From contig JAEESN010000002.1 of NCBI GenBank assembly GCA_016286365.1, forward strand, positions 62,001 to 126,000: 64,000 nt of DNA, written 5' to 3'. The DNA comes from Treponema sp. GTDB lineage: Bacteria; Spirochaetota; Spirochaetia; Treponematales; Treponemataceae. Under the pieces are notes generated by a model. It saw nothing but the letters and a program-made list of their open reading frames with translations, was not told the DNA's origin and did not search any database. Of the stretch, positions 4,949-61,803 are shown in pieces (position 1 is the stretch's first letter; the number at the start of each line of letters is the position of its first letter). A program made the translations under genes and the position numbers.

Positions 4949-5013
4949 CATCGAGGGTTGTCCCCCTTGTAAATGCAGTTTTTCAGCTTTCATCGAGGGT
5001 TGTCCCCCCTGTC
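4949..5013. repeat. Two direct copies of the GAGGGTTGTCCCCCTTGT dispersed repeat
   Basis: catcgagggttgtcccccttgt (4949) and catcgagggttgtcccccctgtc (4991), same orientation, 42 bp apart, just upstream of folE2. Confidence 0.85.
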
Positions 5014-8657: not shown

Positions 8658-11234
8658 ATGGCGGAAAATCTATTCGAAGAAGCAGTATTAAGTACAGAAC
8701 CTCTTGCTGCCAGAATGAGGCCGCGGAATCTTGACGAATACATTGGTCAGGATCACATAGTAGGTAAAGGAAGACTTCTTCGAAGAGCCATCGCCGCAGA
8801 CCAGCTCACATCAGTTATTTTTTACGGGCCTCCGGGAAGCGGAAAAACAACTTTAGCAAGAGTAATCGCCAATCACACTAAATCAAACTTTATCACATTA
8901 AATGCCGTATTAACCGGTGTTGCAGATATCCGTGATTCAATTAAAAAAGCAGAAGATTTTAAAAATCTTTATTCAAGACGCACAATCTTATTCGTAGACG
9001 AAGTTCACAGATGGAATAAAAGCCAGCAGGATGCCCTCCTCCCGTGGGTAGAAAACGGAACAATCATTTTAATCGGTGCTACAACAGAAAACCCTTTTTT
9101 CGAAGTAAATAAAGCCCTTGTAAGCCGTTCCCGTGTATTCCAGTTAAAGCCTCTTACAAACGAAGATTTGATGAAGGCCGCCCAGATGGCACTTACAGAT
9201 ACGGAAAGAGGATATGGCCACTGGAAGGTAGAATTTGAAGAAGGAGCACTGGAGCATTTAATCGATACTGCAAACGGAGACGCACGCTCTTTATTAAACG
9301 CACTTGAGCTTGCGGTAGAAACAACTCCGGATCAGTGGAAGCCAAAGGAAAATCCTCCTATCCCGGCATGGGGTTCAAAAATATACATCAGTAAAGAAGC
9401 GGCAGAAGAATCCATCCAGAAAAAAGTTGTTTTATACGATCGTGATGGAGACTACCACTACGACATAATTTCTGCATTTATAAAATCTTTGCGAGGACGC
9501 GACCCCGATGCTGCATGTTACTGGCTTGCAAGAATGGTAACGGCCGGAGAGGATCCTCATTTTATTTTCAGACGAATGCTCATCTCTGCCTGCGAAGATA
9601 CCGGTCTTGCAGATCCTAATGCAATCAATGTTGTGGAAAGCTGTGCACAGGCGTTCGACAGAGTCGGTATGCCCGAGGGACGATATTTTCTTGCACACGC
9701 AGCGCTCTACCTTGCTACCGCTCCAAAATCAAACAGCTCAATGGCTTTCTTTGATGCCCTTGCAGCCGTAGAAAAAGAAGATGCCGAAGTTCCTAATCAC
9801 TTAAAGGATTCAAACCGCGATGCAGAGGGGTTTGGCCACGGAGCCGGATACCTTTATCCTCATGCTTACAGGGATCACTGGGTTGCACAGCAGTATCTTC
9901 CTGACACACTCATGGGCCGCGTTTTTTATACTCCAAGCACGCAAGGTTACGAAGCAACAATCAGAAGTGATGTTTTAAGCAGAAGGGAACTTCAGATTGC
10001 ATCAATTTTAGAAAAACAGACACACAACGGAGAACTTTCAACCGATGAACTTGCAACAAGCCCGGCAGAAACAGGTTCAATCAATCTTACTGTTCCATCA
10101 GCTTCTAAGGATGGAAAATTAAGTTCAAACTGGGTAAAAACAGAATTTGGTGCAAACCCGATTAGCGAATGGTGGATAAACGAACACTTTAAAAGCGGAG
10201 ATCTTAAGAAAGAAGAAAATCTTACTTTCAGCCCGAAAGATAACGCAAAAGAAATTGCTCTGGACAGAGCGGACAGATTCTGGCGACAGAGACTTGATTC
10301 TAACAGAGCAGAAATCTTACTCAATGTCCGCGACACAATGATTGAACTTGCGGATCTTGCACGCCATCACAGAAGTCTTATCTGGAATGCTGATTCGGGT
10401 CTTTTAATCTGGGAAATAGCACGAAAGGAACCTGAAGGAGTTACCTGCGGAGTTTGTAAATCGGAAAAAGGAAAACAGATTATTGAACAGTATTGCCGAA
10501 CACTCGGAGATTTAGATAAGCCTGTCCTCAAAGTAAGGGGAGAATCCCTTTCTACAGATTTTCTTTCTCCAAAAGATTTTTATAATCTTCTTGTAAAATT
10601 CCAATACGAAGGGGCAATCTTTGACCGTCTGTTTTTTACAGATCCATTTATAAACGAAACTACAATTATTGCCCTTGCAGATGCCATAAAAAGTGTTCTT
10701 ACACCACCTGAAAACAATGTTCTTATTCAGGAAGATCTTATAGATAAAGACAATGATGATGAAGAATTCGAGTTTGAATCACCTGTTGCAGAAGGATTTA
10801 AGGTAATCATCTCGCAGAAAATTCCGGTTCACGGCCAGAGAATCAGCGAAATAGTAAAAAATCAGATTCTTTCCGGCGAATTAATCAGTACATATAAACC
10901 AATCCTTGAAAAAATGGAAGCGGCAGAACAGGAATTCTTTGGCGACAGGGACAACCCTCTGTTTACATGGGACGGAGTGTTCATTGCCAACGCCTTCAGA
11001 AAGCAGGGATTCACTGTAAAGCTCATAACAAGCGAAATTTTTGAAAAACGCCGGATTTCCCGCGACGAAATCAAAAAATGGTTCGATGTGAACAATTCTG
11101 CCTACGGAATCAAGATGATAAACGCCATAGGAACTGCTGACACACAAAAAATCATCAATCTTTTGGAAACAAGCTCCGACAACACAATCTTTAACTGGAA
11201 AAATGAAATTGCTTACCTGATTATTTCCAAATAA
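8658..11234 (+). CDS. rarA: RarA/MgsA-type AAA+ ATPase with about 420-aa C-terminal extension
   Basis: RMRPRNLDEYIGQDHIVG, FYGPPGSGKTTLARVIA, LFVDEVHRWNKSQQDALLP, GATTENPFFEVN motifs; 858 aa. Confidence 0.9.
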   Translation: MAENLFEEAVLSTEPLAARMRPRNLDEYIGQDHIVGKGRLLRRAIAADQLTSVIFYGPPGSGKTTLARVIANHTKSNFITLNAVLTGVADIRDSIKKAEDFKNLYSRRTILFVDEVHRWNKSQQDALLPWVENGTIILIGATTENPFFEVNKALVSRSRVFQLKPLTNEDLMKAAQMALTDTERGYGHWKVEFEEGALEHLIDTANGDARSLLNALELAVETTPDQWKPKENPPIPAWGSKIYISKEAAEESIQKKVVLYDRDGDYHYDIISAFIKSLRGRDPDAACYWLARMVTAGEDPHFIFRRMLISACEDTGLADPNAINVVESCAQAFDRVGMPEGRYFLAHAALYLATAPKSNSSMAFFDALAAVEKEDAEVPNHLKDSNRDAEGFGHGAGYLYPHAYRDHWVAQQYLPDTLMGRVFYTPSTQGYEATIRSDVLSRRELQIASILEKQTHNGELSTDELATSPAETGSINLTVPSASKDGKLSSNWVKTEFGANPISEWWINEHFKSGDLKKEENLTFSPKDNAKEIALDRADRFWRQRLDSNRAEILLNVRDTMIELADLARHHRSLIWNADSGLLIWEIARKEPEGVTCGVCKSEKGKQIIEQYCRTLGDLDKPVLKVRGESLSTDFLSPKDFYNLLVKFQYEGAIFDRLFFTDPFINETTIIALADAIKSVLTPPENNVLIQEDLIDKDNDDEEFEFESPVAEGFKVIISQKIPVHGQRISEIVKNQILSGELISTYKPILEKMEAAEQEFFGDRDNPLFTWDGVFIANAFRKQGFTVKLITSEIFEKRRISRDEIKKWFDVNNSAYGIKMINAIGTADTQKIINLLETSSDNTIFNWKNEIAYLIISK
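10944..10962 (+). repeat. Putative copy of the dispersed repeat embedded in rarA
   Basis: gacagggacaaccctctgt, sharing gggacaaccctctgt with the palindrome at 11282-11345. Confidence 0.5.
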
Positions 11235-11281: not shown

Positions 11282-11345
11282 TTTGACAAGGGGGACAACC
11301 CTCTGTGTTTTCATGAAAACACAGAGGGTTGTCCCCCTTGTCAAA
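11282..11345. repeat. 64-bp perfect palindrome (inverted repeat pair)
   Basis: tttgacaagggggacaaccctctgtgttttca|tgaaaacacagagggttgtcccccttgtcaaa; the two 32-nt halves are exact reverse complements, between convergent rarA and ilvB. Confidence 0.95.
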
Positions 11346-13296: not shown

Positions 13297-13306
13297 GAGA
13301 AAGATG

Positions 13307-13361
13307 GACAAGGGGGACAACCCTCGATGTTTATATGGCATCGAGGGTTGTCCCCCTTGTC
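13307..13361. repeat. Inverted dispersed-repeat pair (23-bp arms, 9-nt loop)
   Basis: gacaagggggacaaccctcgatg-tttatatgg-catcgagggttgtcccccttgtc. Confidence 0.93.
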
Positions 13362-13372
13362 ATTAAAGAAAA

Positions 13373-14521: not shown

Positions 14522-14545
14522 GACAAAAGGGACAGCCCTCGATGA
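14522..14545 (+). repeat. Single dispersed-repeat copy upstream of the RAYT gene
   Basis: gacaaaagggacagccctcgatga, about 65 bp upstream of the transposase start. Confidence 0.7.
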
Positions 14546-14609
14546 TTTTTTTTTTAAATTCTTGCACTTTTTTAAAAGTAATTTCGTATATTATTGTAAG
14601 GAGATTATT

Positions 14610-15365
14610 ATGTCTCGAAAGAATAGAAAATATGGAAAAAGCGGGATTTATCATATCATAATCCGCGGAAATGACAAACAGAACATCTTCTATGACGAAA
14701 ATGACCGTTTCCATCTGCTAAACAGGCTTTCGAAATACGCAAGGGAACTTAATATTCAGGTTTTCGCATACTGTCTGATGAATAATCATGTACATATGCT
14801 TATTGGTAACGGGAATTTTGGTATGAGTAAGTTCATGCTCAAGTTAAATACTAGTTATTCTATGTATTTCAATCGAAAATATGAAAGATGCGGCCATCTT
14901 TTTCAGGGAAGATATCTAAGTGAAACAATAGAAGATACTGTATCTTTTAAAGAAGTCATCAGATATATATTCTATAACCCGGTAAAAGCCTGGCACCAAG
15001 ATTTTACTACATATAAATGGTGTAGCTACAAACATTTTCTTTCGGATAAAGAGTCAATTTTCAATAACTTCCTTGATAAACAGACCGTTTTGAATATTTT
15101 TGAATCAAAAAATTCATTCATAAACTTCAATAAACTATATTCCACCGATATCTTTATGGAATATGAAAATAAACCACTGATAAATGACGAACGAGGACTC
15201 ATCCTCATAAAGAAACTTTTAAAAATAAATAACATATCATCCATAAAAAAATATGATTCAAAAATACTTAAAAATAAACTATCGCTATTAAGAAGAAATG
15301 GTCTACCTGTTAATCAGATATCAAGACTGACAGGAATAAGTCGTCATATTATTCTCCTTTCTTGA
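14610..15365 (+). CDS. IS200-like Y1/HUH transposase, REP-associated (RAYT) type
   Basis: SGIYHIIIRGNDKQNIFYDENDRFHLLNRL, YCLMNNHVHMLIG (HUH motif HVH), CGHLFQGRYLSE, C-terminal HTH-like GLPVNQISRLTGISRHII; SD aaggag upstream. No IS-like terminal repeats recognised. Confidence 0.85.
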   Translation: MSRKNRKYGKSGIYHIIIRGNDKQNIFYDENDRFHLLNRLSKYARELNIQVFAYCLMNNHVHMLIGNGNFGMSKFMLKLNTSYSMYFNRKYERCGHLFQGRYLSETIEDTVSFKEVIRYIFYNPVKAWHQDFTTYKWCSYKHFLSDKESIFNNFLDKQTVLNIFESKNSFINFNKLYSTDIFMEYENKPLINDERGLILIKKLLKINNISSIKKYDSKILKNKLSLLRRNGLPVNQISRLTGISRHIILLS

Positions 15366-15392: not shown

Positions 15393-16853
15393 ATGAGTTT
15401 AAATTGTAATGAAATAAATCTTATACTTAAAGAATTAGATTTAACAGATAATTACATACAGGACATAATTCAACCTAGCTACGATGTTATTGTTTTTCAT
15501 GTATACAAAAAAGGAACACCCAAAACTATCCTAATTTGTACTGCCCAGAATTCAGTTAGAATAAATGAAACAAAACGAAAAATAACCAAAAACAACAAAC
15601 CTCTCAGATTCATGGAATTCTTAAAATCTCACATAAAAGGATGCCGAATAGGAAGTTGTGAACAAATTGGGCTAGAACGTGTGATAAAAATGATACTCTA
15701 TCGTCAAAATCCCGATAATTTAGAAGATAATATCATTTTCAATTTATATATTAAGCTTTGGAATAATGCTGCAAATATAATTCTTTGTGATAAAAATGAT
15801 TTAATCCTGGAAACTATGTTTCGTAGACCAGAACAATACGAAATTAAGGACGAAACTTTCATCCCACCAGCTCAAAATCCAGAAAAAAACAAAGATTCTT
15901 TAACAAAATTTCCAATAAGAGAATATAACACCGAGGGCTGTCCCCCTTGTTCTTTCAATCTCTTCATAGATTCCTGGTATTCAGAACATGCGCAGACATT
16001 AAGCCGGGAAGCTCTTCTGTTACGTGCTGAGAAATGGTTCTTCTCCAGTTATTCAAAACGTAAAAATGCATTAAATAAACTACTTGATAAGCAAAAATCT
16101 TTTGAAAATGCAATACAACTGAAAAATCAGGGAGATTTAATTCTTTCATATGCACATTTGATTAAAAAAGATTCAAATACACTTACATGCACAGATTTTA
16201 ATACGGGAAAAGAGGTTAATATCATTATAAATCCTAACTTATCACCACAAGAAAATGCCTCATTGTATTATAATAATTACAAAAAAGCATTAAGCGGAGC
16301 AGAAGAAATCAAACATGATATTGAACTTTCTAAAAATTCTCTTGAAAAACTGAAAAAACAATACGAAGAAATAAAAAATGAGCCAAATCCTGTTAAAATT
16401 GAACAGCTACTTCGATACACGACAAAACCAAAACAGCAACAGAAGAAGATTCATCCAGGATTAGATTATATCATCGATGGTTGGACTGTATATGTTGGAC
16501 GAGATGCCAACGAAAATGATGATCTTCTACGGCATTATGTACGAGGAGAAGACTTATGGCTTCATGTGAGAGACTATCCAGGGGGATATGTCTTTATAAA
16601 ATCCAGAAAAGGAAAGACTGTCCCCCTTGATATTCTTCTTGATGCGGCAAATTTAGCTGTTTATTACTCAAAAGCCAGAACAAATACTAAAGTTGATTTA
16701 TACTACACCCATGTAAAATATCTCAGACGAGCGAAAACCTCTTCAAAAACACATAAAGGGCTGGTTTTACCAACTCAGGAAAAAAATTTGTGTATCACAC
16801 CAGACAAACAACGCTTAAAACGACTTGATTCTATCCATCAAGAAAATATTTAA
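15393..16853 (+). CDS. NFACT family protein (Rqc2/RqcH/FbpA-like)
   Basis: C-terminal [45 protein letters not shown]...[41 protein letters not shown]. Confidence 0.82.
15931..15952 (-). repeat. Dispersed-repeat copy read in frame in the NFACT gene
   Basis: ccgagggctgtcccccttgttc, encoding TEGCPPCS. Confidence 0.75.
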
Positions 16854-16860
16854 TGTTTAT

Positions 16861-16924
16861 AACAAGGGTTGTCCCCCTTGCAAAAACCAATCTTTTCATA
16901 AACACCAAGGGTTGTCCCCCCTGC
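16861..16924. repeat. Two direct dispersed-repeat copies upstream of leuS
   Basis: aacaagggttgtcccccttg and caagggttgtcccccctgctc, 43 bp apart, same orientation. Confidence 0.85.
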
Positions 16925-16990
16925 TCACCCCCTGCCCATATTCACTCAATCCCTTTTTTCCTATATAATAAACAAAACTTGGAGGCAATT

Positions 16991-20071: not shown

Positions 20072-22729
20072 CTAGTTTTTAAACATATCATCAAAATTAT
20101 CAAAATTGTCCAGATCTATGTTGTCCTGTAGCTCTGGCATTGATCCTGCAAAGTCTTCTGTATCAAAACCGGAAGGGTTGTCCCCGTTGTTCAAAGCCTC
20201 ATCAACCACAGGCGCCTCAAAATCAACACCTGCTAAAGGCTCTTCAGAAGGCGTTTCATCAAACACCGGTTGATTTTCCGGGTTTGTATCTATAAATTCA
20301 TCTGGAACTGCCTGCATATCAGAAATATCCTGAGGAACAATGTTTTCAGAAGCAAACGAAACTTCATCTGCACCCGTTTCCTGAACAGAAGCCTCAAATG
20401 AATTTCCATCAACTGTCGGAGTCGTAAATGCACCTTCTTCTACTGCAGGAGCTTGGAATGCATTCTCTTCTGCCATAGTTTCAGCTGTAACTTCCTGTAC
20501 AGGTGCATCTTCTGCAGCTGGCATTTCTTCTTCCAGAGGTTCCATATCATCGGCATATTCAATTGAAGATTCATACTTCATTACAAGAATACTGATGTCG
20601 TCTTCCATTTCCTTAGACATGAACTTCATAAGTCCGTCAAAAGTGAACTGAGCCATACGCTGTGCCGGATAAGTAGAATTATCAAGAATAGCCTGCTGAA
20701 TGCGTTCCTTTCCGAACTGTTCACCACGAAGCGAATGAGACTGAACAAGACCATCAGTACAAGCAAGAATGATGTCTCCAGGATTAAGCTTTGTTGTCTT
20801 AACCGAAATGAACGGAGAAATATCCTTTACGAATCCAAGAATATGTCCCGAACCCTGAATCTCGATTACGTTATTATAAACCTGAGTATACATCATAAGG
20901 GCCGGAATACCACAGTTGATGTAGTACATCGTATCAGTTTCAAAATCAACAAGTGCAAAAAGACCCGCAAAGATTGTACCCTTAGGCAAACTTGTTCTGA
21001 TAAAGTCGTTAAGCTTTACAATCAGCTGCTTAAAATCATGAGTTTCTGCAAGGAAGGTTCGGATGATGGACTTTAAGATGACCATGTTCATAGAAGCCGC
21101 AATACCCTTTCCAGACAAGTCACCAACTACAAAAAGATGACGTGTTGCAGTAAGACGGATTAAATCGATGAATTCACCACCGATGTTGTGGGCAGGAACC
21201 ATGAGGTATCCGATATCGACTTTTGAATTATTTATGTGATCAATGTTTTCCTGAATGGAAGTAATGATTTGAGAAGACATCTTAATTTCGCGGCTTACAA
21301 CAGAAAGAATTTCCTTGTTTGAAATGTTTCTCATATAATAACCGAATACAAAGAAGTATGAATAAAGCTTGTTGAAGATATCAATATCGTACTCTTTATA
21401 GTGGTCACCGCTGACTTTTTTACCAAGGGTGATTAAACCAAGGATATTGCGACCTTCATTCAAGATAAACATTGCATCGGTCTTTGTAGTAGTAAAGAAT
21501 TTATCAAGCTGTTCTTCGATTGGAGAAAGGTCGTGAATTTTTCCAACCTGATAGTAACAGACAACTGACTGGTTGATATTTAATAAAGTATCAAAAATTG
21601 GATTCGAGGTTGCAATTGCCTTAGTAGTCTTATTCGAAGAATATGCAACTTCAAGAGCGCCCTTCTGGTTAGAAATATATACAGTCATAGAAGAAGACTG
21701 AACATTACGTCTGAAAATCTGATACATCCTTTCTGTAATCGTATCCATCTCATCACTGTAGTCAATCGAAGCAAGATCCTTTTCAAGAGAAGGACCATAT
21801 TCAGATGTATACAATCTTGCAGATTTAGAAAGAAGAATTGAGATTTTATATGAAACAAAGAATGCTACAACGGCAATAACAATAAAGAGCAAGATAAATG
21901 ATGGTGTGTACATCATCTTACCCGAAGGCTGAGAAGACATGATTAAAAATCCGACAACTACAGCAGGAAGAATGTACGAAAGAATTGCCTTAATACAGTT
22001 TGTAACAATATTTGCTCCCGAAGGAATATCTTTTTTCTTGAGCGCAAAGATAGTGAGCACAACCATAAAGATAACAGGAAGCATATAAAGACAGGTAAAT
22101 CCAGGTAATGATTTTACCATTGTATCTTTAAAGAAAATGAGTGCCCACAAAAGGAGTAATGATTCACCTATAACAAGTCCCTGATATCTTTGCAGAGAGC
22201 TTCCATTTCTTTCCTGAAGAAGAACAAGGAAGATATAACAGATGGAAGGAAGAAGAATCTGAAACAGAATCTGATATAAATCAACCCAGTTCCATGGGAA
22301 GAAAGATCTTGCAGGCTCAGAGAAGAAATAATTTGATTGGATAGTATAAAGATAATCAGCGCTTATTTCCGGATTATGGAATTGATTAGAAACAAGTAAG
22401 ATTCCAAGAAGCATCGAAATAGCGCAGAGAACAGTTGTTACCTTCTGCTTTTTCTGAACACCAAGGTTGATTAAAGAGAAACTGAACAAAGACCAGAAAA
22501 TAACATCAATATATTTTGTTAAGATTAAAATCTTTTCTGTTAAAGACGGCGACCAGAATCTTGAAAAACAAAGAATGATAGAAAAAACAATTGATTCTAC
22601 GGTAGCAAGCAAAAGAGGTATGATCAGGTTACTGCTTTCCGGAGTAACTTTCTGAAGCTTTCGGTCAATATATAATGTACAGAAGAGGAATGACAGTGAA
22701 ATAATAATATTTAATGCAGCATATACCAT
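20072..22729 (-). CDS. Multi-TM membrane protein with SpoIIE/PP2C phosphatase domain and acidic tail
   Basis: Many TM helices; IGGEFIDLIRLTATRHLFVVGDLSGKGIAASMNMVILKS...GDIILACTDGLVQS. Confidence 0.85.
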   Translation of the reverse strand: MVYAALNIIISLSFLFCTLYIDRKLQKVTPESSNLIIPLLLATVESIVFSIILCFSRFWSPSLTEKILILTKYIDVIFWSLFSFSLINLGVQKKQKVTTVLCAISMLLGILLVSNQFHNPEISADYLYTIQSNYFFSEPARSFFPWNWVDLYQILFQILLPSICYIFLVLLQERNGSSLQRYQGLVIGESLLLLWALIFFKDTMVKSLPGFTCLYMLPVIFMVVLTIFALKKKDIPSGANIVTNCIKAILSYILPAVVVGFLIMSSQPSGKMMYTPSFILLFIVIAVVAFFVSYKISILLSKSARLYTSEYGPSLEKDLASIDYSDEMDTITERMYQIFRRNVQSSSMTVYISNQKGALEVAYSSNKTTKAIATSNPIFDTLLNINQSVVCYYQVGKIHDLSPIEEQLDKFFTTTKTDAMFILNEGRNILGLITLGKKVSGDHYKEYDIDIFNKLYSYFFVFGYYMRNISNKEILSVVSREIKMSSQIITSIQENIDHINNSKVDIGYLMVPAHNIGGEFIDLIRLTATRHLFVVGDLSGKGIAASMNMVILKSIIRTFLAETHDFKQLIVKLNDFIRTSLPKGTIFAGLFALVDFETDTMYYINCGIPALMMYTQVYNNVIEIQGSGHILGFVKDISPFISVKTTKLNPGDIILACTDGLVQSHSLRGEQFGKERIQQAILDNSTYPAQRMAQFTFDGLMKFMSKEMEDDISILVMKYESSIEYADDMEPLEEEMPAAEDAPVQEVTAETMAEENAFQAPAVEEGAFTTPTVDGNSFEASVQETGADEVSFASENIVPQDISDMQAVPDEFIDTNPENQPVFDETPSEEPLAGVDFEAPVVDEALNNGDNPSGFDTEDFAGSMPELQDNIDLDNFDNFDDMFKN
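20171..20192 (-). repeat. Dispersed-repeat copy in the acidic tail of the SpoIIE-type gene
   Basis: ggaagggttgtccccgttgttc, encoding NNGDNPSG on the minus strand. Confidence 0.65.
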
Positions 22730-24280: not shown

Positions 24281-25423
24281 TTAGTTTTCGAGCTCGGAAA
24301 GGCGGATTAAAGCAGGCTCTTTCGGAGGATTTTCAAGCTCAAGATACTGTTTTAAAAGATCCTTCTGCTTTGAAGAAAGATGATTAGGAACCTGAACCAT
24401 TACCTTTACATAAAGATCGCCTTTTCTTCCTGATGATGAAATTGGTACACCTTCATTTTTGATTCTTAAAAGCTTACCGTTTGCAGTTCCTTCCGGAATC
24501 TTGATTGTAACTTTTTTATCGTCCAAAGAAGATATAGTGATTTCGCAGCCTAAAGCAGCCTGAGCCATTGTTACAGGAACAGCACAGTATAAATCGCTAC
24601 CCGAACGCTCAAAGAATGGATGATTTTCAACGTGAAGTACAACAACTAAATCTCCGCTTGGTCCACCGTTTTCACCGGCATCACCCTGCCCGCGGATTAC
24701 TATACGTTTTCCGTTATCAACACCGGCTGGAATCTTAAGCGACATTGCCTTTGATTTTTCCTGAATACCTGTTCCACGACAATTTGTACAAGGCTTATCG
24801 ATTACAGTGCCTTTTCCACGGCAGTTTGGACATGTCTGCTGAATAGAGAAAAATCCGTTTCCCTGTCTGATCTGACCCATTCCGTTACATGTCGGACAGG
24901 TCTTTTTATTTGAACCCGGAGCTCCGCCTGAACCGTGGCAAACATCACAGGTTTCGTTGTGTTTAAAATGGATTTCTGTAGAAGTACCGTAAACGGCATC
25001 CTTAAAGTTTAAGTGAAGATCGTATCTTAAGCTTGCGCCTGTAGAAGCTCCGCCGTTTCTTCTGGAAGAGCCTCCTCCAAAGCCGCCGCCAAAGATACTG
25101 TCAAAAATATCATTAAAGCCGCCGCCCATGCCTCCGAATAAATCGCTGAAGTCGTGGAAGGCGTGAGAGTACTGGGCACCGCCACCACCCCCCATTCCGT
25201 CAAGGCCGGCAAAACCGTACTGATCATAAATAGGGCGTTTCTTATCATCGGAAAGAACTTCGTAAGCTTCTGTCGCTTCCTTAAATTTTTCCTCCGCTTC
25301 CTTATCGCCCGGGTTTCTGTCCGGATGATATTTTACAGCCAGTTTACGATAAGCTTTTTTAATCGTATCCTGATCTGCATTTTTTTCTACGCCCAATACT
25401 TCATAATAGTCACGTTTTGCCAT
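24281..25423 (-). CDS. dnaJ: Chaperone protein DnaJ
   Basis: J domain [36 protein letters not shown]; four CxxCxGxG zinc-finger repeats. Confidence 0.97.
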
Positions 25424-25457: not shown

Positions 25458-25648
25458 GCCTCGCATAGTCTCGGCGCTTGAGCCGTTCTTTCGATAATCC
25501 TAAAGCGGCCCACTGTCGTAGCCCGCTTTTTAACGGATTTTCGATTTTAGGCTGCCTCGCATAGTCTCGGCGCTTGAGCCGTTCTTTCGATAATCCTAAA
25601 GCGGCCTACTGTCGTAGCCCGCTTTTTAACGGATTTTCGATTTTAGGC
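25458..25648. repeat. Tandem duplication, period 96 bp, between dnaK and dnaJ
   Basis: gcctcgcatagtctcggcgcttgagccgttctttcgataatcctaaagcggcc(c/t)actgtcgtagcccgctttttaacggattttcgattttaggc occurs twice with one substitution; a fragment ttcgataatcctaaa also lies at about 25428. Confidence 0.95.
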
Positions 25649-25649
25649 A

Positions 25650-27614
25650 TTACTTTTCGTCTTTTACCTCGTACTCAACGTCGTCGGCATTGCCTTTGTT
25701 GAATCCGGAAGCGCCGGAAGATGAGCCTGCATTAGAACCTGCATCACCGCTGGCACCGTCGTTTGGATTTGGACCTGCGCCCTGTGCTCCGGCCTGTGCA
25801 CCCTGCTGTTTGTAGAGTTCTTCTGCAATCTTATAAGAAGCCTGTTTTAATGCTTCTGTCTTAGACTTAATTTCTTCTGTGTTGTCACCCTGGAGTGCCT
25901 GTTTAAGGGCAGCGATTGCATCATCAATCTTCTGCTTTTCTGCACCGTCAACCTTGTCTCCAAGTTCCTTTACAGATTTTTCTGTTGCATAAATCAAGCT
26001 GTCTGCTTCGTTTCTTGCATCAACACTTTCACGTTTAGCTTTATCAGATGCTGCATTTGCTTCTGCATCCTTTACCATCTTTTCGATTTCTTCGTCGCTC
26101 AAGCCTGAAGAAGAAGTAATCTGTATGTGCTGTTCCTTTCCTGTTCCAAGGTCCTTAGCAGATACGTGAACAATACCGTTTGCATCGATATCGAATGTAA
26201 CTTCAATCTGAGGAACTCCACGAGGTGCGGCAGGAATACCAACTAAGTCAAAGCGTCCAAGTGTTCTGTTCTGGTCAGCCATTTCGCGTTCACCCTGAAG
26301 TACATGAATAGAAACTGCTGTCTGTCCGTCTGCTGCAGTAGAGAAGATCTGACTCTTCTTTGTAGGGATTGTTGTGTTACGAGAAATAAGTTTTGTCATA
26401 ACACCACCCATTGTTTCAATACCAAGTGAAAGTGGAGTTACATCAAGAAGAAGAACGTCTTTTACATCTCCTCCAAGTACACCACCCTGGATTGCAGCAC
26501 CTACTGCTACAGCTTCATCAGGGTTTACGGCACGGCTTCCTTCCTTACCAAAGATTGATTTAACAACTTCCTGAACTTTTGGCATACGAGAAGAACCACC
26601 AACTAAAAGAACTTCGTCGATTTTGTCAGAAGTAATTCCTGCATCTGCAAGAGCCTTGCGGCAAGGTTCCTTTGTTCTTTCGAATAAATCTTCTGTCATC
26701 TGTTCAAACTGAGCACGTGTCAAAGACTTCTGTAAGTGCTTTGGACCTGTGCTATCCGCTGTGATGAACGGAAGGTTGATGTCTGTAGAAGTCTGTGCAG
26801 AAAGCTGAATCTTTGCATTTTCTGCTGCTTCACGAAGACGCTGCATAGCCATAGGATCTTTAGAAAGGTCAATTCCAGTATCCTTTTTGAATTCGTCTAT
26901 TAACCAGTTGATGATTACACGGTCCCAGTCGTCTCCTCCAAGATGTGTATCACCGTTTGTAGATTTTACTTCGAATACACCGTCGCCAAGTTCGAGGATA
27001 GAAATATCGAATGTACCACCACCAAGGTCGTATACGGCGATTGTTTTTTCTTTGTTCTGATCTTTATTAAAACCGAATGCTAAAGAAGCTGCAGTTGGTT
27101 CGTTGATGATACGTTTTACATCAAGACCTGCAATCTTACCTGCATCCTTTGTTGCCTGACGCTGAGCATCGTTGAAGTAAGCCGGTACAGTAATAACAGC
27201 TTCTGTTACTTCCTGACCAAGATAATCTTCTGCAGTTTTCTTCATCTTCTGTAAGATGAAAGCAGAAATTTCCTGAGGAGAATACTGTTTCTTTGCTCCG
27301 TTTTCTTCTACTTCTACACGACAGTCAGAACCGTTATCTATAACTGCATAAGGAAGCTTTGTTGCTTCTCCCTGAAGTTCTGAGTATCTGTGACCAATAA
27401 GTCTCTTTACAGAATAAATTGTATTTTTTGGATTTGTTACCATCTGGTTTTTAGCAGGAGCACCTACAATTCTGTCTCCCTTAGAAGTAAAACCAACAAT
27501 AGATGGTGTTGTTCTTCCGCCTTCTGCATTCTGAATTACAACAGGTTCACCGTTTTCCATTACGGCTACACAAGAGTTTGTTGTTCCTAAGTCAATACCA
27601 ATAATCTTTCCCAT
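25650..27614 (-). CDS. dnaK: Chaperone protein DnaK
   Basis: [52 protein letters not shown]-terminal [11 protein letters not shown]. Confidence 0.98.
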
Positions 27615-28414: not shown

Positions 28415-29449
28415 TCAATATTTTTTAAAAAATTCCTTAAATTTTTCAGGTAGTTCAGATCTTACATCATAAAACTTTTCACCGGCCTTAAACGAAAGCC
28501 TTGCCGCATGAAGGCATATTCTTTCAAAATCTTTTCCACTGTAAAGCTCATCTCCCAAAATCGGAAGCCCTTCTTCGCTCAAATGTACCCTTATCTGATG
28601 AGTCCTTCCCGTGTGCAAAATGCATTTAATCAAAAAAACATCATCTTTACCTGATTTTCCTTCATCAATAACTTCAAAATCTGTCCGCGAATATAAACCG
28701 CCTTTTTCCTTACCCAACGCGCCCCACTTAGCAGCCTGACTTTTAGAAGAGATTCGCCCCATGTATTTTTCTACAGAAAACTTATCTCCAGGTTTGATTT
28801 CTCTTTTAGCCCCCGGAGCCTTTGTTACAACGCAGAAATATTCTTTTTGTAAGTCATCACTCTGATTATGATTTTCGAAAAGCTCATGGATGATTTTATT
28901 TACAGGCCGGTTTTTTGTAAAAAGAATTACACCGGATGTCTCGCGGTCAAGCCTGTGCATAATACCTGCATAAGGCGGATTTCTAAGCGATGGATTTCTC
29001 TTCCATAAATAATCAACAAGCGCATCGTGAAGGTTATCCCTCTTACCGGTAATAGTCTGTTCTACCGGGAAAAAGGCGGGTTTATTCAAAAAGATTAAAT
29101 CATCGTCTTCAAAAAGGACTGTATCATCTGTAACAGAAAACTGAATATCGTCGGGCTTTTTTTCGTAAAAGAACTTTTCGCTATCGAATAAAACACAAAC
29201 CTCCGATTTTCCGCGAAGTTCAAAAGATGGCCTTGTTACAACACGCGAATTTACACTCACACTGCCAGAAATGATGAGCCTGCGCAGTTTTGAATTGGAA
29301 GGGCTGTCCCCCCTGTCAAAAAAATCATCTTTACCCCGAGGGTTGTCCCCCCTGTTCAAAAAAATTTTAGAAGGCAGTTCTTCCCTTAAAAAAAGGTCCA
29401 GTCGCTGAGTTTTTTCTGTCTTTAGAATGATTTTCTTAGTTGCGGACAT
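28415..29449 (-). CDS. RluA-family rRNA/tRNA pseudouridine synthase with S4 domain
   Basis: GIMHRLDRETSGVILFTKN; HTGRTHQIRVHLSEEGLPILGDELY; N-terminal S4-like region interrupted by repeat-derived residues. Confidence 0.9.
   Translation of the reverse strand: MSATKKIILKTEKTQRLDLFLREELPSKIFLNRGDNPRGKDDFFDRGDSPSNSKLRRLIISGSVSVNSRVVTRPSFELRGKSEVCVLFDSEKFFYEKKPDDIQFSVTDDTVLFEDDDLIFLNKPAFFPVEQTITGKRDNLHDALVDYLWKRNPSLRNPPYAGIMHRLDRETSGVILFTKNRPVNKIIHELFENHNQSDDLQKEYFCVVTKAPGAKREIKPGDKFSVEKYMGRISSKSQAAKWGALGKEKGGLYSRTDFEVIDEGKSGKDDVFLIKCILHTGRTHQIRVHLSEEGLPILGDELYSGKDFERICLHAARLSFKAGEKFYDVRSELPEKFKEFFKKY
29297..29357 (-). repeat. Two direct dispersed-repeat copies in frame in the pseudouridine synthase gene
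   Basis: ggaagggctgtcccccctgtc and ccgagggttgtcccccctgttc, 39 bp apart, encoding NRGDNPRG and DRGDSPSN on the minus strand. Confidence 0.88.
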
Positions 29450-47514: not shown

Positions 47515-47766
47515 GGCTATAATGCCGTGGAGTGCAAATTCCACAAGTTTGATAGAGGCAGAAAGGGATTCGTCGTCGGTAGGAAGGGCAAAAAGGGTGC
47601 TGGCGCCGCTTTCGGGATTCTGGCGGACAATTTCTTTGCGGTTGGCAATGTAAAAATCACGCTGCTGGAGGATTATGGAACAGATTGATGCAGCTGCTTC
47701 GCGGATTTCCTTATTGGCTTTGAGCGTGATTTTTTCTATCTGACTAAAGGCTGCAAGAATTATTGT
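47515..47766 (-). pseudogene. C-terminal fragment of a tetR paralogue
   Basis: Minus-strand translation IILAAFSQIEKITLKANKEIREAAASICSIILQQRDFYIANRKEIVRQNPESGASTLFALPTDDESLSASIKLVEFAL closely matches the C-terminus of the TetR at 50006-50671. Confidence 0.85.
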
Positions 47767-50005: not shown

Positions 50006-50671
50006 TTATAACATATATTTTAAAATAAATTCAATTATTTTAAATGTCCCCGCCAGTGCTTCGTCATCACTAGGAAGTGCAAAAAGTGTTCCCGCGCCGC
50101 TTTCTGGATTCTGGCGAACAACTTCTTTTCTATTAGAAATGTATAAATCCCGCTGTTCAATAATAACTGCTGCAAGACAGGATGCTGCTTCCTTTAATTC
50201 TTTTTCTGTTTTGAGCGTGATTTTTTCTATCTGGCTAAAGGCTGCAAGAATTTTTCTTATGTCGTCGGTAATTTTTTCGTTTTCGGCTTTTATAATTTCC
50301 AGGGCATTTAAATTAAAATACTGTTCCGAGCGTACAAAAACGTACATATGGAAAAGAGGCTCAGTTTCGTAGAGGTTAAAAAATCTTGTAACAAGGCGTT
50401 TAAAAAGAGGAAGCAGGGAAGTTTTATTGTTTTTGATTGAGTCGATTACCTTATCAGAAAGAAAGCTGATGGAACCGATTTCTTTTTTACAGAGATTTAA
50501 GGTTTCTTCGTAAATATCATCTCTTCCTGCAAAGTGGTTGTATAATGAAGCTTTTTTAATTTCCAGACTGTCCGAAATATCTGCAAGCGATGTAGCTCCT
50601 GCTCCTTTTTCAAAAGCGCTTGCTAAAAAAGACTGGATGATTTTTTCCTGCGAAATATTTTTTCTACTCAT
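50006..50671 (-). CDS. TetR/AcrR-family regulator
   Basis: N-terminal HTH: IIQSFLASAFEKGAGATSLADISDSLEIKKASLYNHFAGRDDIYEETL; divergent from acyl-CoA synthetase gene. Confidence 0.88.
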   Translation of the reverse strand: MSRKNISQEKIIQSFLASAFEKGAGATSLADISDSLEIKKASLYNHFAGRDDIYEETLNLCKKEIGSISFLSDKVIDSIKNNKTSLLPLFKRLVTRFFNLYETEPLFHMYVFVRSEQYFNLNALEIIKAENEKITDDIRKILAAFSQIEKITLKTEKELKEAASCLAAVIIEQRDLYISNRKEVVRQNPESGAGTLFALPSDDEALAGTFKIIEFILKYML

Positions 50672-61050: not shown

Positions 61051-61803
61051 ATGAAAAAAAATGTTTTTTTACAGGGAGTAAGGGATGGTTTACCGATTGG
61101 ACTTGGTTATCTTGCCGTTTCTTTTTCTCTTGGAATTGTTGCAAGAAATGCGGGGCTTTCGGCTTTTCAGGGATTTCTTGCCAGTCTTTTGAATGTTGCA
61201 TCGGCAGGGGAATACGCCCTTTTTAAGGGAATAGAAGCTGCTTCGCTTTATATAGAAATTGCCCTTATTACTTTTGTTATTAATGCCCGCTATCTTTTGA
61301 TGAGCTGTGCACTGTCTCAACGATTTGATGAAAAAACGGGGCTTCTTGCTCGCCTCTTGGTTGGTTTTGGGGTAACAGACGAAATTTTTGGAATTACGGT
61401 AGCGCGCGACGGTTATATTGAACCAGCCTATAATTACGGAGCAATCTGTATTTCTGTTCCTTTGTGGTGTATAGGGACAGCCCTTGGTGTAATTGCAGGA
61501 AATCTTTTACCGGCAAGCGTTGTAAGTGCACTTTCTGTTGCTTTGTACGGTATGTTCCTTGCAATCATCATTCCACCTGCAAAGAAAAATCCTGTAATTC
61601 TTGCCGGTGTTTTAGTCAGTTTTGCATTAAGCTTCTGTTTTACAAAGATTCCATATATAAAAGAAATTTCTTCGGGAAACAGAACGATTATTCTTACGGT
61701 TGTTATCTCATCTGTGCTGGCAATCATTAAGCCTGTAAAGGGGGACAACCCTCAGAAAAACGAACAGAATAAAGAAAATAATAAAGAGGAGGCAGCAAAA
61801 TGA
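61051..61803 (+). CDS. azlC: AzlC-family branched-chain amino acid exporter subunit
   Basis: GVRDGLPIGLGYLAVSFSLGIVARNAGLS; followed by overlapping azlD. Confidence 0.87.
   Translation: MKKNVFLQGVRDGLPIGLGYLAVSFSLGIVARNAGLSAFQGFLASLLNVASAGEYALFKGIEAASLYIEIALITFVINARYLLMSCALSQRFDEKTGLLARLLVGFGVTDEIFGITVARDGYIEPAYNYGAICISVPLWCIGTALGVIAGNLLPASVVSALSVALYGMFLAIIIPPAKKNPVILAGVLVSFALSFCFTKIPYIKEISSGNRTIILTVVISSVLAIIKPVKGDNPQKNEQNKENNKEEAAK
61738..61755 (+). repeat. Dispersed-repeat copy at the 3' end of azlC
   Basis: aagggggacaaccctcag, encoding KGDNPQ. Confidence 0.7.

Follow-up and report, generated by a model that had tools for sequence, protein, structure and literature searches.

TIRYTs, or TIRtrons, consist of a RAYT-like Y1 transposase located between inverted repeats (TIRs) that share the sequence GGGGWSAS, and are told from RAYTs by their length (Di Nocera et al. 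2013, PMC3733652). TIRs can build dispersed families of dimers or clusters, and REPs inside genes are already known; TIRYTs were judged less productive, with no obvious correlation between the gene and the repeat family (PMC3733652). Most TIRYTs fall into subclass 2.1 of the TnpA-Y1 proteins, which are long and carry a C-terminal helix-turn-helix-like extension, and no REP-like sequences were found near subclass 2.1 genes (Quentin et al. 2018, PMC6006769). In three marine gammaproteobacteria and in Thauera, repeats have been reported to accumulate within some 200 kb of the rayt gene (Nunvar et al. 2010, PMC2817692). Our literature search, for which subscription journals were mostly outside coverage, found no study of a RAYT or REP from Treponema.

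Here we analyzed a window (the whole stretch of 64 kb, C29:62001-126000) from the genome of a gut-type Treponema, designated G000. It contains a Y1 transposase gene and copies of a short repeat, GACAAGGGGGACAACCCTC, located as follows.

4953-4971, minus strand: repeat copy upstream of folE2, in a direct pair with 4995-5013
4995-5013, minus strand: repeat copy upstream of folE2, in a direct pair with 4953-4971
11282-11345, no strand assigned: perfect 64-bp palindrome of two inverted repeat copies, between convergent genes
13307-13325, plus strand: repeat copy, left arm of an inverted pair
13343-13361, minus strand: repeat copy, right arm of the inverted pair
14522-14540, plus strand: degenerate repeat copy preceding the transposase start by 70 bp, where relatives have their upstream flanking repeat
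14610-15365, plus strand: Y1/HUH transposase gene (RAYT/TIRYT-like), 251 aa from ATG
15933-15951, minus strand: in-frame repeat copy in an rqcH-like gene, in a length-variable loop, encoding TEGCPPCS
16864-16882, minus strand: repeat copy at the leuS ORF 5' end, upstream of the conserved domain
16907-16925, minus strand: repeat copy with 4 mismatches at the leuS ORF 5' end
20173-20191, minus strand: repeat copy close to the 3' end of a gene with a SpoIIE domain
29299-29317, minus strand: repeat copy at an rluA-type pseudouridine synthase ORF 5' end
29338-29356, minus strand: repeat copy, again at an rluA-type pseudouridine synthase ORF 5' end
61735-61753, plus strand: repeat copy at the 3' end of an azlC-type gene, past the AzlC domain

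The preliminary description of this DNA had recognized a Y1/HUH transposase with an HVH motif, and this identification was confirmed. The gene gives the single match to PF01797 (Y1_Tnp) in the whole 2.68-Mb genome, with a Pfam score of 62.5 bits, and its product carries the HUH motif N59-H60-V-H62 and a conserved Tyr119; H60, H62 and Y119 are invariant in 64 relatives. The best PDB match of its AlphaFold model (pLDDT 93.4) is 4er8, a RAYT-REP hairpin complex of the E. coli type (E 2.8e-7). Residues 193-250, at the C-terminus, are all-helical in the model and extra relative to 4er8; HTH_7 was matched by 4 of 16 members, with a score below its cut-off. The NCBIfam model REP_Tyr_transpos gave 62.6 bits, under its curated cut-off of 80. 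A longer, TTG-started ORF from 14520 was rejected as the start of the gene, its reading frame crossing the repeat copy, and the ATG at 14610 is the likely start.

The gene had also been called IS200-like, without recognizable IS ends. The gene is single-copy and paired ends are absent, and an IS200-like insertion sequence was rejected on these grounds and on an NCBIfam IS200 score of 20.4 against a cut-off of 55. The Treponema transposase resembles IS200/IS605 elements (IS608, ISDra2) in its catalytic fold and, presumably, in single-strand hairpin recognition, but differs from them by that score and by the lack of any repeated whole IS in its genome.

At up to 3 mismatches, GACAAGGGGGACAACCCTC has 13 copies in the window, compared to 0.00 expected from shuffles. 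A genome-wide count, proposed earlier as a check, gave 44 copies at the same threshold in 2.68 Mb and none for the reversed control pattern; the contig that includes the window accounts for 20 of these copies. With two sites of 4 mismatches, at 10941 and 16907, the window copies make up the list of about 15 given in the preliminary description, from which one member has to be removed: the 10.9-kb site is a coding coincidence, encoding the conserved peptide GDRDNPLF of a MgsA/RarA-type ATPase gene, and G008, a genome without a transposase match, has the same peptide in other codons. Chance or coding bias explains this one site. As an explanation of the motif as a whole we give it no credence, since shuffles predict 0 copies and reversed-pattern controls were near zero in most of the genomes surveyed below. 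The copy at 14522, reported to lie close upstream of the transposase, is indeed there.

Several other observations were made in the window. The MgsA/RarA-type gene (8658-11234) is inverted in G034 (C34:48393-50981) relative to its syntenic neighbours, and the palindrome at 11282-11345 borders this gene. A tandem pair of 95-bp repeats, 99% identical and predicted to fold strongly as RNA (z about -5), occupies 25458-25648, in the gap between the ORFs 24281-25423 and 25650-27614. It has no Rfam match, as was the case for the window searched as a whole; full or partial copies are found elsewhere in the genome (C31, C17, C21, C29, C5), and it represents a second dispersed family, unrelated to the transposase repeat. 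The stretches 47536-47764 and 50027-50255, 2.5 kb apart and 74-83% identical, are probably paralogous gene segments.

In G000, the conserved repeat unit is ACAAG-GGGGACAACCCTC-gNTG, while only GGGGACAGACCCC with weak flanks is conserved in G014 and G025. Isolated singles make up about half of the G000 copies. Among close pairs the direct orientation prevails, the two starts being separated by 36-43 bp; two pairs are inverted, the 64-bp palindrome and the pair forming a perfect palindrome at about 13305-13363. The regular spacing suggested a CRISPR-like array, which was rejected, as copies are mostly dispersed singles or pairs in both orientations. Single G000 units form only weak hairpins (-2 to -3 kcal/mol, z about -1).

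Relatives' transposase genes have flanking copies, often on both sides. In a wider set of Treponema and Clostridia, the gene is usually preceded by one copy at about 40-250 bp and followed by an inverted copy at about 25-275 bp, and many relatives show GGGGWSAS flanking inverted repeats (of the GGGGACAG and GGGGACGG type). A different repeat family flanking the transposase had been named as evidence that would speak against the proposed link; relatives' genes are in fact flanked by the same family. The window gene retains one flank only, the degenerate upstream copy AGGGACAG, the downstream copy being absent. Because this single degenerate copy remains, the intact window transposase is of uncertain present activity and may no longer be active.

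Among 111 flanking copies from Treponema and Clostridia, a stem lies outside the GGGGAC core, where the pairs -9/22 to -3/16 covary (z 4-10) with several pair types each; a copy-specific outer stem was not found in the dispersed Treponema copies. The GGGGAC head of relatives' flanking copies is constant and the tail variable. Repeat distance and protein distance are correlated (Mantel r 0.54, P <=0.0002), a correlation that vertical descent alone could also give. When residues setting repeat specificity were sought, alignment columns 100 (in GHLFQ-x-R) and 76 stood out, but with only 6 non-Treponema ACA-head sequences and uncontrolled phylogeny they were not taken as specificity determinants. 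No conserved GTAG or GTGG tetranucleotide was found within 20 nt of the core in nine repeat sets.

We then asked how transposases and repeats are distributed in 119 Treponema genomes, defining as type I the window-like transposases with a best E value below 1e-60. Type I is present in 10 genomes, which contain 32, 41, 51, 67, 68, 72, 84, 93, 137 and 148 copies of the core GGGGACARMCCYY, whereas the other 109 hold at most 18. An equal abundance of the motif in transposase-free relatives, which the preliminary description had considered fatal to its proposal, is therefore not the case. More distant transposases, 35-40% identical and marked by RGVN... and GHL[FY]Q[DE]R, were classed as type II. 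Their flanking repeats pointed to another motif, RGGGACAGRGWWA, which was then searched as a prediction and found in 68 copies in G010, 35 in G129 (the least clean count, with 26 reversed-pattern control matches), 60 in G131 and 42 in G138, and in at most 4 copies in each of the remaining 115 genomes. Both transposase types and both motifs are present in G010 and G129. The chance of such exact sorting is about 1e-14 for type I and 1e-7 for type II if genomes are independent, values that shared ancestry makes larger in truth.

Across the 119 genomes, a transposase type is thus always accompanied by its own repeat type and never found alone, a double dissociation. As each type is found only with its own repeat, this comparison supports the idea, put forward in the preliminary description, that the transposase spreads the motif. 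One genome, G007, holds 18 copies of GGGGACAGACCCC-type repeats with no transposase detected, and is a candidate for recent loss of the transposase gene. One Treponema MAG, Horse_feces305, contains four type II-like transposases (L193, L216, L223, L247) with GGGACAGAG-type repeats nearby, and the type II transposase may itself be mobile.

The repeats are also concentrated around the transposase genes. Merging copies less than 150 bp apart and including the small number of copies directly beside the genes, we obtained an enrichment within 10 kb of the transposase of 27x in G000, 31x in G025, 38x and 55x for the two genes of G034 and 57x in G057, with binomial P values for these five transposases in four genomes of 9e-8 to 4e-16. 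The two clouds of G034 differ in their repeat variant: on the contig with the intact transposase, all 15 copies have the ARCCCTY form, while 7 of 8 have the AGACCYY form on the contig with the broken one (Fisher P 3e-5 between contigs). This broken second transposase (C27:86114-86835; L111, L135) has a split reading frame, with its own repeat variant still around it. Type II copies also cluster at their genes, in G129 at C15:71.9-76.8 kb, with the gene at 74.2 kb, and in G138 on C34. A second type I repeat cloud was observed in G025 at C45:135-245 kb (L262-L267); no transposase or relic was found inside it (C45:130-249 kb), and this cloud is perhaps the trace of a lost transposase gene. Gene loss or assembly gaps may explain the transposase-free repeats both here and in G007.

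These distributions bear on two other explanations. Gene conversion, slippage or homologous recombination could have spread the cloud with no direct role of the transposase, and the regularly spaced direct tandem copies of G000 could indeed grow by slippage. We consider this very unlikely, since it explains neither the strict co-occurrence with the transposase type nor two motif-specific clouds in one genome, and the isolated singles of G000 also speak against it. Transposase and repeats could instead have arrived together on a foreign island, the cluster being that island and nothing more, in line with a patchy distribution in the genus (either transposase type in 12 of 119 genomes). However, the cloud extends over housekeeping genes (folE2, ilvB-type, rqcH, leuS) and the gaps between them, and copies are found within conserved coding loops. 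Moreover, gene order is shared with G034 for folE2, its neighbours, the MgsA-type gene, the acetolactate synthase gene and rqcH, and the G034 transposase is in the same interval. Judged from this synteny, the window region does not represent a foreign island, making this explanation extremely unlikely.

We also looked at the position of the copies relative to genes. In G000, 22% are intergenic compared to 7% of random positions, 33% are inside ORFs, and 20 of 49 (41%) are near ORF starts, at the 5' ends, compared to 15% of random positions, some of these starts being probably over-extended. In G014, 88% of copies are intergenic, and in G034 most are within ORFs. The rqcH loop that holds the copy at 15933 varies in length across the genus, being short in G024 and G004 and containing two repeat copies in G034. 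Further copies were found inside transporter, PrmC-type and Memo-type genes, some of them between domains.

The excess at ORF 5' ends, together with the degenerate copy upstream of the transposase gene itself, could suggest that the repeats are host binding, regulatory or structural elements under selection, with the transposase as a passenger that uses them. We regard this as highly unlikely and largely refuted by the double dissociation: the repeat is absent from about 90% of congeners and occurs only alongside the matching transposase type, the copies gather around the transposase gene and not around a regulon, and many are within unrelated genes.

Considering these data, a single-strand-specific HUH/tyrosine transposase very probably recognizes the short hairpin-forming repeat and copies or moves it, preferentially near its own gene. 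The comparison of genomes supports such local spreading by the window-type transposase. The protein would recognize the repeat as a single-stranded hairpin composed of the GGGGAC head, the variable tail and weakly paired CA...TG flanks, and would copy or move it by cutting and rejoining single-stranded DNA. Preferential action near the gene would then produce a cloud of tens of kb made of singles, direct pairs (36-43 bp) and inverted pairs, in which some copies would land in frame within genes, in loops and linkers. Local action would probably come from a protein acting near its site of synthesis or on the same single-stranded region. The fold, the catalytic residues, the link between types, the clouds, the relatives' flanking copies and the in-frame copies in genes are shown at the level of sequence; that the protein binds and cleaves the hairpin, how the repeat is copied and why action is local are inferred by analogy with the IS200/IS605 and TnpAREP systems.

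Compared to REP/RAYT systems (REPtrons, E. coli TnpAREP, 4er8), the Treponema system shares the HUH/Tyr fold, hairpin-type repeats, paired or arrayed copies and a strain-specific co-occurrence. It differs in the lack of the GT[AG]G foot, in shorter and weaker hairpins, in pairs that are mostly direct instead of inverted, and in the extra C-terminal domain. The earlier assignment to REP/RAYT systems stands insofar as the repeats flank the gene in relatives, are dispersed and are absent without the gene, but not for the branch, which is probably GGGGAC/TIRYT and not GTAG-tagged. In conclusion, the system is not a canonical REP/RAYT, because it has no GTAG/GTGG foot and combines weak hairpins and a C-terminal helical extension with a GGGGAC head. 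The transposase probably fits among the TIRYTs, in a branch like TnpA-Y1 subclass 2.1.

The likeness to TIRYTs/TIRtrons lies in the Y1 transposase, the flanking inverted repeats of relatives and the dispersed copies. On the other hand, the correlation between gene and repeat is complete within Treponema, of which the main text of Di Nocera et al. (PMC3733652) gives no example, and the G000 consensus head GGGGACAA misses the last S of GGGGWSAS. The transposase resembles subclass 2.1 in being long, with a helical C-terminal extension that may be of the helix-turn-helix type; the difference is that the Treponema repeats occur beside the genes and, by the dozen, at dispersed sites. Unlike the clouds of Nunvar et al. 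(2010), which belong to GTAG-type RAYTs, the Treponema clouds are of GGGGAC type, occur in several species and are motif-matched for two transposases in one genome. Each element therefore has a precedent, and what is new is the double dissociation, motif-matched clouds around TIRYTs, units of 13 to 24 nt and in-frame copies in genes.

More generally, it is possible, if somewhat doubtful, that GGGGAC-type transposases (TIRYTs) are efficient, sequence-specific and local spreaders of hairpins of 13 to about 24 nt, forming variant-matched clouds that are still growing and adding loop peptides through in-frame copies. Inferences on how REP-like repeats spread have so far drawn mainly on gammaproteobacteria and GTAG repeats. 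Treponema offers dozens of sequenced species in which two transposase and repeat types dissociate cleanly, with one genome carrying two gene-cloud pairs, and a repeat substrate can be assigned to a transposase branch that was reported to have none. The two types also supply ready pairs of protein and DNA, matched or mismatched, on which cleavage could be assayed, and local (cis) action becomes directly testable in this genus.
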